Assembly: GCF_040436345.1 (NCBI RefSeq)
Contig: NC_133215.1
Location: 22,680,806-22,744,805 of the forward strand
Source: Pagrus major
Lineage: Eukaryota > Chordata > Actinopteri > Spariformes > Sparidae
Length of the DNA: 64,000 nt
Direction: 5' to 3'
Shown here one piece after another: positions 39,701-57,256 of this stretch. Each line of letters opens with the position of its first letter. The stretch's first letter is position 1. Position numbers and translations under genes: made by a program. The notes under the pieces are model-generated. The model saw only the letters and a program-made list of their open reading frames with translations, did not search any database and was not told the DNA's origin.

Positions 39701-42700
39701 ATGGTGGTCCACAAAGGTGAATCAGAGATCACTATCCAGATTGTAAACCTCCCTGCTACTTCAGCCAGAAAGAGTTACACTGGTGAGGTGACTAGTGCAG
39801 CAACGGGTGAGACAAAAATGCTTTCACTGTTACGTTGTTTTAACCATTAAAGCAACCAGAATTAAATCAGTTGTCTTGCATTGAATTGTATAATAAGTAT
39901 AAGTAAGTATAAGGTCATGGAAGACATGTTGTTGTCTAAAAGTTTAAGAAAATAAAATCCAAGGAATCTGCATTTTGTAAGTGCAGAAGTGAAAGTGTCT
40001 TTTTGGTTTTTAGGTTGACATTTTTTGTTTAATTACATCTATTAATGTAATTACATTTATACATCTCAGCATTTTTGTAATCTTCTCATTTTACTTGATT
40101 TAATTTATTACATATTATTGTGATTATTTACTTTTATTTGACTGTTAAGTCACTTGTTTTAATGTATTATATCTGACAAACAAAGATGATATTTAATACT
40201 GTAATTTCCATCACATACTTACATGGCACTTTGTCCCAACACAATCACTCAAGTGACCTGTTTGATCTGATGAAGTCAAAAAAGAGCCTGACAACCAACA
40301 GATGGCATCATTTATCTTCTCGCCTTTTTGTGCAAGTTGTATACAGTATTACTGTACGAATACAGTATTCATGTCTAACCACCTCTGCCAGTAGCCCTGA
40401 TCAGTCTGAGCTTTGCTCCAGAATGGACAAACACCGGAGCCCTCAGTAGGTGCTGCAGGTCCAGTGCAGCTTGCTTTCTGCCATGTGAACCCATTGTGTG
40501 TGTGTGTGTGTGTGTGTGTGTGTGTGTGTGTGTGTGTGTGTGTGTGTGTGTGTGTGTGTGTGTGTGTGTGTGTGTGTGTGTGTGTGTGTGTGTGCGTGTG
40601 TGTTTTCTGCACACAGGAGGAAAACTGCATGGATGCATTGCTTTGAGCTTTTGTCTCTTGTGTATCCTACAAGCCAGTCTGAATATTTGCCTGCGTCTTG
40701 CTCTCTGTGAGTTGTCTTGAATTGTTACATTATTTCTATATAATCATATATTAATTTCTAACTAACCAAGATTCAGCTTCTGAAAATACCTGCAGTTTTA
40801 AGAATATATCAATGTAATTTGGAAATTCTGTGTTAAAGTATATTTGTCTCTTCAGTTGTTGACATAATCCAAATCTTTTATGATGTAAGCCTCTCCACCA
40901 GGTATTGACTGCAGTTGTAAAAATCTGACCGATGAGAGGGACAACTTGAGGAGGATTAACTTGGGTAAGGGATGAAAAGTACATTACCTAATGTGTTAAT
41001 TTAGTGAGCTGTCTCTTTAGTTGTGAACATACTCTGATTCTGTTGCAAATAATGTTGACTTCTCCACTAGATATTGAGGAGCGTTATAAAATCCTGACTG
41101 AAGAGAGGGACAACTTGAGGAGGATTAACTTGGGTAAGGGATGAAAAGTACATTACCTAATGTGTTAATTTAGTGAGCTGTCTCTTTAGTTGTGAACATA
41201 CTCTGATTCTGTTGCAAATAATGTTGACTTCTCCACTAGATATTGAGGAGCGTTATAAAATCCTGACTGAAGAGAGGGACAAGCTGAAGAGACAGCTGAA
41301 TGTTCTCAGTAAGTATGAGAATAAATATATTAATACCAGTAGTCAGTTATTAAAAGGAGTGTACAGGAGGAGTTCGATGAGGACCCAAGTGCAGACACAC
41401 AGGAGGCAGTATTGGGAGAAACAAAGGGCAAGTTTTTGATAACTAAAGCTGAATACAAAAAAATGAGGAAATACAGAAAGACTAAAATGAGACAAGTAGA
41501 CACAAACAAAGTAACAACTAAAGGCTAAAACAAAGTGCAAACAAAAGCAAAGTAAAAATTAAAAGAGAAACCAGAAACCAAAACTACAAACATACCAAAA
41601 CGGGAGACAGGAGGAGTCACTGGAGGAGACACTGGGGAAGAAGCTGGGGGAGAACACAGGGTGACATCACGGGGAAACACTCACGAACACAGAGGAAGAC
41701 AGACCAAGACGGACACAGGCTAACACGGAGAAGGTCGGGAACGGGACGTCACAGAGGAATGACGGAGTAACACAGAATACGGAACACGGACCAAGACAGA
41801 GGGAAACGAAAACGATCTGACAAAAGACAAAGACATACACACTAATGACGGGACGAGGAACAGGTGGAGTGAAGATGGACACGGACAGGTGAGGGAATTA
41901 ACGGAAAAACGCACAGGAGGAACTGACAAGCTCGATGCGACACACAAGGGTAAAACTTCAAAGTAAAACAGGAAACAGGAACAAACGGACACTGAACCAT
42001 GACAGTTGTTGCTCCAAATGTGTTTCATTAGACGAATATGTGAAGAGTGGAATATTCAATGCAGTGTTTTGAGCCACTACATAATTAATAAAGTAGTTAT
42101 TGCGACAGTAGTTTTATCGCCTTATGAGTGAAAATCTTGTTAAATAAATCCATGATCACCAGCAGGTTTTAAATGTCCTTCTGTCTTGGATTGACATATT
42201 TTGGTTCTTTGTTTTTTTAAACAGGACACTACTTGCAACAAGGATGGCTGTATTTCAATGACAGCGTCTATTACATTTCTTCAACCAAGAAGACCTGGCA
42301 AGACAGTAGAAATGACTGTCTGCAGAGAGGTGTAGACCTGGTGATTATCATCAGCAAAGAAGAACAGGTGTGTGTGTGTGTGTGTGTGTGTGTGTGTGTG
42401 TGTGTGTGTGTGTGTGTGTGTGTGTGTGTGTGTGTGTGTGTGTGTGTGTGTGTGTGTGTGTGCGTGTGTGTTTGTGTGTAACTACCATGACTGTTGGTAG
42501 AAGCTGGAGACAACCATCAGAACTCTTACGCAGAGATAAACAAAACAATTATTTTGGACCAGACAAACATTTTAGAAATATTAATTCACAATCATAATGT
42601 TTTTAAGGAAAAGAGATGTTTTATTCAGCACCTTACAAGCTCTGTAGATGTTTTTTGTTTATAATTTGTTTACATAAAAATATTATCAACATGACCTTCA

Positions 42701-54433: not shown

Positions 54434-57256
54434 ATGGAGATGGTATTCTTTGAAGAGGAAGATGACATCGCCATAGTAAATGATGCTTCAGTGAAGGATG
54501 TTTCATTACAGAGCCACTCTGATGAAGAAATAAATGAAAAGACTGCTGCAGTGCCTGGTGAGAAAGATATCCTCAGTTTAGTACAAGTGTACTCAGCTTT
54601 ATACAAGTGTGTTTTAAGAAGTGACTTAAAATGGGGCACTGATTCAGCAAGCTTGAGATTGAGGGCTCTGACAGCAAATGCGTAATTACCTTTGGTTTTA
54701 AGATGCAAGAGCAGAGTTTTTTCTGATGATCTCAGTCAGCGCGCTTAGCCATAGGAGAAGAGCTCTGAGATGTAAGGAGGTGCCAAACCAGAGAGGGCCT
54801 TAAAAGTATTTTTAAATCAATTCAAAAATACTCTAGTTACCAATGTAAAAAGGTCAAAACGCGATGGTGTGATGTGGTCACAATTGTATAAGTTGGAGGG
54901 AGAGATTCTAATGGAGGGACTTTTGAGAGAGACATGTATAAAGGGATCAGTGATCGAGGTGTGTGGATGACCTTTCAAGGTTGGACAACCATTTTCATTT
55001 TCATGTGTAAGTCTAATTTAAAAACTCAGTTAAATAAAACTCTAAAATCTATGGCTGAGTGCTATAAGTTAGAGGCCAGTGGACAGTGGAGGAGGTGACT
55101 ATCAAAATGAGTCCTGATATGGTTGGTGGTGAGGGGTAGGACGACTTCAGCTTTGGTGTCATTGTGCTTGAGACAGTCTTCAGCCATCTAGTTTTTAATG
55201 TCTGCAGAGGTGATGAAGGGAGGTTTTATTACTAGGTTTGATGGGTGGATAGAGTTGTGTGTCATCAGCATAGGAATGGAACCAAATGTTTTTTCGTATA
55301 ATAGTTTCAATATTTTTTGATATTATGCTACCCTATGAACCATCTTAGCAAGCTGAGTGCTGCTGGCTTACATACAGTATAGGCAGCAGGGTTAGGTTTA
55401 CTTTTTTCAGACTACAGCAACAACTGCTCAAAATATCTATGCATGTCCCTTTACAGGTAGTGAATAGGTAGGTTTTGATATTGCATTACTGTTTTTTGTT
55501 GGCTATGGACTCCTGCATTTTAGCTTCAGGTGCTGGTGATGGAAAGAACAGTTCTTGCGGTGTGGCTGCATTGTGCCTGGGTGCGCTGTGTCTTCTCCTT
55601 CTGATTGGGTTCAAAACTCTGGTTTCCCAATGTGAGTACTTTATTAGCATGTTGATAAAGCTCCAGGAAGATAATACTGGTTGACAGTGTTTATTTGTTT
55701 ATGTTTTAAACAGATAACAAAAGCAAATCTGAGCAGGAAAGGGATATGTTCCTGTTTCAGACCAGATATAACAACCTGACTAAAGAAAGAGACCAGTTAC
55801 AGACCAGTTACGACAACCTCATCAGTGAGAGACACCAGTTAGCGGACAAGCTGACAAGACAGAAAGACCAGTCACAGACCAGTTACAACAACCTGACTAA
55901 AGAGAGAGACCAGCTACTGACCAGTTACAACAACCTGACTAAAGAGAGAGACCAGCTACTGACCAGTTACAACAACCTAACTACAGAGAAGGACCAGCTG
56001 CAAGAAAGATCTGAAGTCCTGACCGAAGACAGAAATAATCTTCAGGGAAAGCTTCAAGGTAAGTAAAATACAATTTCTGAAGAGAGTGTGCCGCCCTTAC
56101 AGAAAAACCACATGAATTTCACATGTGCAAAACACATGTGGTGAAGTGACCATATGTGTTTTTGCACATATGGTACCGCATTATCATATCTATTTAGGGA
56201 CCACTTGGAAGATATGATTATCCACTTTGGATTTTGGATTTGTTGCAAATGTGCACTCACTCAACTTAAATATTTGCTCTGACTGCTCTCTAAATATGTG
56301 TCTGTCAAAATCTATTCTTATTAGTGTGTTGATTGCTTAAATAATGGTGACCACTCTTTGCAGATACTGAGGCCAGTCTGAAAAACTTGACTGATGAGAG
56401 AGCTAACCTGAAGAGGACTCTGAATATCTTTGGTAAGCAAGATGATACAATAAATTGTTAAAATGAAATTAAACCCTCCTCAAAATTCTCAACATACCGT
56501 CTTGTCTCCTCTCTTTGTGTGAACCATTTGCTATTTGTTGTTGTAAATGAGACACTAACTTTTTTTTTCTGTTTCTCACCATGGTCAACAACAAGGGGTA
56601 TATTTCCAAGGTAGTTTCTATTACATTTCTACCACCAAGAAAACCTGGCAACAGAGTCGAGATGACTGTCTTCGAAAAGGTGCAGACCTGATGATTATCA
56701 ACAGCAAAGAAGAACAGGTGTGTGTGTGTGTGTGTGTGTGTGTGTGTGTGTGTGTGTGTGTGTGTGTGTGTGTGTGTGTTAAAGCTTGGAGTTAGTCTAC
56801 ATTAGGTGGACATTGAAATGAGTTTAATGGAACTTCAATTTCAGTTAAGTTGTTTAAAGTTTGTGTCTCTCTTTTTAAAAAAGGATTTTGCAAACCGGTT
56901 CAAGAAGTACATGTGGATCGGCCTGACTGACTCACAGAGAGAGGGGACGTGGAAATGGGTGGATGGGACTCTGCTGACCAAAAGGTTCAGGCTTTTGTTT
57001 GTTTGTTTGTTCGTTTGCTTGCTTGTTTGTTTGTTTGTTTGTTTCAAATTAAATAATCTCCTTGTGCGTCTTGGATTGCATTCTCTGATAGAAGTTTATT
57101 TTTTCATATTGCAGCTACTGGGCTTCTGGGGAGCCTAACGGTAGAACACAAGAAAACTGCGGGGATATAAAGAATTATGATGCTGAAAAAAGTTGGAATG
57201 ATGAAAGCTGTTCCCATTCACTCTACTGGGTCTGTGAAAAGAAACTCCTGCTATAA
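54434..57256 (+). CDS. Type II C-type lectin receptor 7, long N-glycan neck
   Basis: Seven in-phase exons: 54434-54557, 55530-55631, 55714-56058, 56364-56432, 56596-56717, 56884-56984 and 57115-57256 (334 residues). The tail is acidic (FFEEEDDIAIVNDAS) and has no tyrosine. The membrane segment has ALCLGALCLLLLIGFKTLV, with a lysine near its outer end that lectins 3 and 8 lack. The neck (about 76-190) is built of 14-residue units such as SYNNLTKERDQLLT with repeated NLT sequons, followed by a second stalk exon. The CTLD lacks the N-terminal Cys pair and also the usual Trp: GVYF instead of GWVYF, because the exon starts later. It keeps DDC, WIGLTD, WKWVDG, GEPNG, ENC, SWND and YWVCEK. The acceptor of exon 5 is weak (CAACAACAAG). 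The first CTLD donor is a (GT)n tract. Confidence 0.82.
55746..56005 (+). repeat. Coding 42-bp repeats (lectin 7 neck)
   Basis: Units of AGTTACAACAACCTGACTAA type, about five, interrupted by a diverged stretch that encodes QLADKLTRQKDQ. Related to the neck repeats at 28494 and 61915. Confidence 0.85.
56718..56779. repeat. (GT)31 starting at CTLD splice donor, lectin 7
   Basis: An uninterrupted 62-base tract whose first GT is the donor of exon 56596-56717. Confidence 0.96.

Follow-up and report, generated by a model that had tools for sequence, protein, structure and literature searches.

The window analysed here is a 64,000-nucleotide (nt) stretch of the Pagrus major genome (contig NC_133215.1, hereafter C1, positions 22680806-22744805; genome 786 Mb in 25 contigs). 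It carries C-type lectin genes in tandem array, and the element under study is a GT repeat that, in several of these genes, begins at the first base of the intron that follows the first exon of the C-type lectin domain (CTLD). The joined lectin 7 fragment matches Pfam PF00059 (Lectin_C; E 6.8e-18, 65.8 bits against a gathering cut-off of 22.6) over residues 21-109, a span that includes the exon join after residue 47. Among the 60 best PDB matches listed for this fragment, Ly75 and a C-type lectin domain protein (9kpl) stand on top, and chains of CD209/DC-SIGN and CLEC4 are found behind Ly75.

The lectin 5 exon, searched against the whole genome, gives 49 matches, and the counts below cover the 30 sequences that were retrieved, with 17 weaker outside matches left out. 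Eighteen of the 30 fall into two clusters, namely the window array with 40 kb beyond it and a reversed copy of the array on contig C4 (C4:37920001-38040000), for which the C1 side extends over window positions 5022-64000 and on to cluster coordinate 97704 (window numbering continued). The two clusters are 98.65-99.72% identical in ten aligned blocks longer than 2.4 kb, and lectin-4-type copies number three on C4 versus one on C1. Either a recent segmental duplication produced the C4 cluster, or it is a second haplotype that was misplaced. The clusters differ in structure in the spacer before lectin 5, where a (GT)49 tract on C1 stands opposite unrelated C4 sequence containing a long run of C (C4r 63256-63420 versus window 40400-40640).

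The first CTLD exon of lectins 5, 6 and 7 ends in AAAGAAGAACAG (GAACAG), and uninterrupted tracts of (GT)47, (GT)35 and (GT)31, respectively, run from intron base 1 (42368, 47239 and 56718), exactly at the donor as the original prediction had placed them; its reading of GTGTGT in lectin 2 and of GTGGGTGT in lectin 4 at the same donor spot is accurate as well. Beyond the window, lectins 8 and 9 carry (GT)46 and (GT)26 at this donor (cluster coordinates 66819 and 72226). These two further tract-bearing paralogs, the C4 copy of the array and a change of gene relationships around the tract are new here. Across both clusters, a tract occupies the donor in 10 of 18 same-strand exon copies, and the tractless copies belong to lectin 2 (two), lectin 4 (four) and lectin 10 (two), which amounts to three of eight copies on C1 and five of ten on C4. 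The pure run measures 15-47 units in all ten tracts, preceded by 14 units and TT in lectin 6 of C4 and by GTGTGTAT in lectin 9 of C4. The make-up of the tracts is pure GT with few interruptions, and no compound (GT)x(GA)y arrangement occurs. None of the 12 retrieved loci outside the clusters has a donor tract, one of them (L034) having no intron at that place.

GT tracts as such are very common in this genome, with 224,314 forward and 226,960 reverse matches to a 32-base GT sequence in 786 Mb (overlapping counts), so that only their placement at the donor is remarkable. The window and the next 40 kb, 104 kb in all, contain eight GT/CA tracts of at least 8 units, five of which start exactly at this lectin donor; none of 12 control GT tracts starts after CAG, the control being a small, non-random sample made up of the first twelve tracts listed near the start of C1. 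The lectin donor holds GT tracts more often than chance placement would give. None of the literature listings viewed named GT repeats at the donors of lectin genes, though this does not prove them unpublished. GT tracts away from the donor lie at a shared spot in the spacers before lectins 8 and 9 (window 59996-60045; cluster coordinate 68420-68481), and on C4 too, with other lengths. A strand bias, with GT on the gene strand in all eight listed C1 tracts and in 11 of 12 listed C4r rows, was considered and dropped because paralogy leaves too few independent cases.

Tract length differs between C1 and C4 in all five counterpart pairs, at 47/32 units in lectin 5, 35/14+45 in lectin 6, 31/35 in lectin 7, 46/25 in lectin 8 and 26/3+15 in lectin 9. 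The flanks upstream of the tract are 99.5-99.8% identical between the clusters over about 641 nt in the three pairs measured (lectins 7-9). This comparison of lengths holds whether C4 represents a second haplotype or a second locus.

The relationships among the paralogs change around the tract. Over the 400 nt to its left, lectin 8 equals lectin 9 at 392/400 positions and lectin 7 equals lectin 8 at 284/358; over the 450 nt to its right, lectins 7 and 8 agree at 399/417 and lectins 8 and 9 at 380/413; and between +450 and +700 the corresponding values are 240/250 and 100/248 (sums over scanning windows, the last partial one dropped). Lectin 8 is a mosaic that is lectin-9-like upstream and lectin-7-like downstream. 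The maximum chi-square break for this gene lies at -85/-79 in both clusters, with none of 2000 permutations as strong, and breaks within 90% of the maximum extend from -110 to 0 on C1 and from -110 to +39 on C4, which locates the switch between about 110 nt before and about 40 nt after the tract. Of the sites flanking the tract most closely, that at -44 is lectin-9-like and that at 0 lectin-7-like. In lectin 7 of C1, a patch to the right of the tract has two substitutions and a 21-nt deletion in common with lectin 8 and ends before a lectin-7-like site at 56836.

The C4 cluster contains two exon-2 copies without exon 1, termed fragments A and B (C4r 42450-42760 and 55390-55711), each of which starts in a GT tract with a foreign left flank. 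Fragment A follows (GT)39; the sequence to the left of this tract matches the left flank of the C1 spacer tract at 40496 (89% over 55 nt, and 97.7% over 523 nt further left), and the right side is 90% lectin-9-like. Fragment B follows (GT)44; this tract is preceded by sequence from downstream of lectin 4 (88% over 189 nt), a place at which C1 has only GTGTGG, and the right side is lectin-7/8-like. Thus one switch, two junctions and one weak patch are situated at or near GT tracts. As a separate observation, fragment A is changed at residues conserved in the paralogs and in fragment B an AT-rich repeat takes the place of the expected exon 3, and the two look like decaying copies.

Table 1. Coordinates, in window numbering, of the lectin exons, donors, tracts and exchange sites.
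Feature	Positions	Strand	Remarks
Lectin 2 donor	24195..24200	+	CAG, then GTGTGTTT; GTGTGT only, unexpanded
Lectin 4 donor	37494..37501	+	CAG, then GTGGGTGT; unexpanded; sequence behind donor resembles lectin 6
Lectin 4 downstream site	39096..39113	+	TATTGTATCTAT, then GTGTGG; on C4 the same left flank leads to (GT)44, lectin-7/8-like intron and exon 2 (fragment B)
Spacer tract before lectin 5	40496..40594	+	(GT)49; on C4 its left flank is joined to lectin-9-like intron and exon 2 (fragment A)
Lectin 5, first CTLD exon	42225..42367	+	ends ...SKEEQ, phase 0; tblastn and translation
Lectin 5 donor and tract	42368..42479	+	(GT)47 pure at 42368-42461, imperfect tail to 42479; C4 counterpart 32 units
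Lectin 5, second CTLD exon	42733..42834	+	intron 365 nt, no AC run of at least 6 nt
Lectin 6, first CTLD exon	47096..47238	+	5′ end inferred from acceptor AG
Lectin 6 donor and tract	47239..47308	+	(GT)35; C4 counterpart (GT)14-TT-(GT)45
Lectin 6, second CTLD exon	49155..49256	+	intron 1916 nt, longest AC run 7 nt
Lectin 7, first CTLD exon	56577..56717	+	5′ end approximate
Lectin 7 donor and tract	56718..56779	+	(GT)31; C4 counterpart 35 units
Lectin 7 patch	56780..56835	+	matches lectin 8, not C4 lectin 7; largest extent; markers 56789-56803
Lectin 7, second CTLD exon	56884..56985	+	

The array also contains 42-nt tandem repeats (14 codons) of varying copy number (window 28495-28810, 55754-55997 and 61909-62051), which we take to recall the variable neck repeats of DC-SIGN-type lectins. 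Elsewhere in the window, one short-repeat stretch appears at 956-1158 and at 13402-13574 in opposite orientations, about 12 kb apart; it is lysine/alanine-rich and by eye histone-H1-like.

Similar comparisons behind the donor bear on the origin of the tracts. Likeness of the post-donor sequence was scored against 500 shuffles for 21 lectin pairs, and lectins 4 and 6 are alike there to a degree reached by only 1 of 500 shuffles, the best result among the 21 pairs bar the obvious pair of lectins 7 and 9. For lectin 2, 30 of 500 shuffles do as well in the comparison with lectin 9 and 156 of 500 in that with lectin 7. Lectin 5 has no convincing partner, its sole match, to lectin 10, being GT-like (3/500 shuffles). 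Lectins 7, 8 and 9 and both exon-2 fragments of C4 have their post-tract sequence in common. Judged by these likenesses, the post-tract sequences comprise at least two types, that of lectin 6, which resembles tractless lectin 4, and that of lectins 7, 8 and 9, with lectin 5 unplaced. Since lectin 4 is tractless, lectin 6 has a tract and the type of lectins 7-9 is separate, at least two expansions are required, or a single one spread by conversion. The proposal that tracts grew from a GTGTGT seed fares unevenly: the post-donor sequence is common to lectins 4 and 6, but lectin 2 is a weak candidate for the seed of the tracts in lectins 7-9. Three clearly independent origins in lectins 5, 6 and 7 are rejected because the flank behind the tract of lectin 7 is also that of lectins 8 and 9.

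The effect of the tract on the donor was gauged by computed pairing with the 5′ end of U1. The sequence CAG/GUGUGU (the slash marking the exon end) pairs at seven Watson-Crick positions and one wobble, giving -7.2 kcal/mol, as against -11.6 for the consensus, -10.9 and -11.7 for the lectin 4 donors, -5.8 for lectin 10 and -1.2 for a GU inside the tract. The tract donor is accordingly below lectin 4, equal to lectin 2 and far above the GUs within the tract, and its pairing is constant with tract length beyond three units. The first units are the donor, the exon end is pinned by CAG, and any tract of at least three units yields CAG/GUGUGU, so a change in length cannot destroy the donor, as the original prediction had claimed. 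It had also supposed that donor strength may change with length; the GTGTGT donor is indeed weaker than that of lectin 4, but beyond three units its pairing with U1 does not follow length.

Other properties of the introns were also compared. Those of lectins 7 and 8 are 154-196 nt long, and GT accounts for a third to half of them. In predicted folds the tracts of these two lectins are unpaired (0 of 62, 92, 70 and 50 nt), and in lectin 5, 54 of 94 tract bases on C1 and 44 of 64 on C4 are paired with other intron sequence; the predicted partners are mid-intron (positions 151-228 of 365 and 134-198 of 335), not near the acceptor. The lectin 6 intron, which is too long, was left out of the folding, and we know of no pUG (poly-UG) model in the folding program used. 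No AC run of at least 6 nt is present in the introns of lectins 5, 7, 8 and 9 in either cluster, and the longest in lectin 6 is 7 nt.

Overall, the lectin donor tracts resemble recombination joints more than they do proven splicing switches. We favour, with a rough probability of 0.57, a reading in which they are microsatellites grown by slippage that are tolerated because the splice donor is itself the first repeat unit, and that also serve as joints for ectopic recombination. Growth would start by slippage from a short GT-rich donor, and length would be nearly free to vary, given that U1 would see CAG/GUGUGU whatever the length. Gene duplication would then carry the tracts along, and within a tandem array they could act as patches of homology for unequal exchange, gene conversion or template switching. 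An exchange at the tract would combine the halves of two different lectin domains, the first half coming from one and the second from the other. To judge by the title of Wahls et al. 1990, in human cells (TG)30 reportedly promotes the reception of information during gene conversion.

Several points weigh against this reading. The switch in lectin 8 is resolved to about 150 nt rather than to the tract itself, and 11 of the 38 informative sites to the right of its break are lectin-9-like. The patch in lectin 7 is weak because 73 of 2000 permutations, the deletion uncounted, are as strong, and it involves few sites. Junctions A and B each occur once in a single assembly, and GT tracts can give rise to misjoins during assembly; the evidence as a whole is the sequence of one genome in one assembly. 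It may be, too, that a GT tract is a marker of exchange rather than its cause. Finally, when ten non-independent pairs of short exons are pooled, synonymous divergence (dS) is 0.53 in exon 1 versus 0.85 in exon 2 and nonsynonymous divergence (dN) is 0.14 versus 0.28, a pattern that may arise simply if exon 1 is better conserved than exon 2. The case for homogenisation of exon 1 relative to exon 2 is weak.

One alternative, which we consider unlikely, is that the tract regulates splicing. In such a model, UG-repeat RNA at the donor would form a pUG quadruplex or be bound by TDP-43 or CELF proteins, and tract length would govern whether the first CTLD exon is included or the intron retained. All ten tracts have a pure run above the 23-nt (GU)11.5 minimum for the pUG fold (PMC12636285, in part), and the large share of GT in the short introns of lectins 7 and 8 is consistent with such a role. 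The GTGTGT donor pairs with U1 less well than the lectin 4 donors, and this weakness would leave scope for splicing regulation. Conversely, since tract lengths differ in every counterpart pair, no particular length is kept; the tract is dispensed with altogether in 3/8 copies on C1 and 5/10 on C4; and the pairing of the donor with U1 is independent of length beyond three units. Effects of TDP-43, CELF or pUG structures on splicing are possible, the tracts being long enough for them.

A similarly doubtful alternative accepts the tracts as real and explains the chimeric fragments and the switches as assembly errors or mixed-up haplotypes, leaving ordinary donor-adjacent microsatellites that were inherited by duplication. 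GT tracts are common and difficult to assemble, the C1 and C4 clusters, about 99% identical, could be two haplotypes placed on different chromosomes, and junctions A and B are found in the C4 cluster only. However, lectin 8 is a mosaic in both clusters, at junction B a tract is joined to a short GTGTG, a small overlap for an assembler to be misled by, and the patch in lectin 7 includes a 21-nt deletion in unique sequence.

A stronger form of the favoured reading, in which the donor-anchored tract is kept as a recombination joint that is phase-0, splice-safe and placed in the middle of the lectin domain, seems to us improbable to a greater degree. If true, such a joint would let paralogs swap a conserved first half against a variable sugar-binding second half with frame and splice site intact. 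Least credible of all is an AC/GT bridging intron (Lin et al. 2016), in which a 5′ GT repeat pairs with a 3′ AC repeat and replaces U2AF2: this is a fish genome with a GT repeat near the 5′ splice site, and the tract of lectin 5 is predicted to pair within its intron, but the complementary AC repeat near the 3′ splice site is absent, the tracts of lectins 7 and 8 are predicted to be unpaired and the partners in lectin 5 lie away from the acceptor, so that, no AC partner having been found, the model is rejected as contradicted for the tract introns unless the partner lies outside the intron.

Because its length can vary without loss of the splice site, a repeat whose first unit is the donor makes a good test case for a role of microsatellites in guiding exon shuffling within immune gene clusters. 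With two clusters about 99% identical and ten donor tracts, the question is testable within one species, and fish donors that carry GT only become available for comparison with AC/GT bridging introns.

Among known systems, CD209/CLEC4-type C-type lectins have the Lectin_C domain in common with these genes, and 42-nt tandem repeats lie in the array; the best PDB matches are Ly75 and 9kpl. Fish AC/GT bridging introns have GT repeats on the donor side and AC repeats on the acceptor side (PMC7404189 and PMC12636285, in part), and the tract introns of the lectins differ from them in having no AC repeat on the acceptor side. In the sea urchin Sp185/333 family, microsatellites at the edges of duplicated immune-gene segments are proposed drivers of duplication and conversion; unlike the lectin tracts, these are GA/GAT repeats that flank whole genes rather than lying within them at a splice donor (PMC3091723, in part). 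Intron 2 of flounder MHC class II B, again from fish immune genes, has in its initial part a GT microsatellite whose copy number differs among paralogous loci; an exact distance from the donor and recombination at the repeat are absent from the description as excerpted (PMC4394517).

Closest among known cases is the microsatellite in intron 2 of MHC-DRB (DRB-STR, D6S2878), a (GT)x(GA)y repeat within which a recombination event has been reported in macaques (PMC4629986, in part). Both systems have, in a duplicated immune family, a repeat containing GT at the beginning of the intron that follows a ligand-binding exon, with polymorphic length and presence in most copies (PMC4629986 and PMC4018467, in part). 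The lectin tract belongs to another gene family and is pure GT, and in Aotus DRB 40 alignable sites precede the repeat (PMC4018467, in part), whereas the lectin tract starts at intron base +1, with its first unit forming the donor itself.

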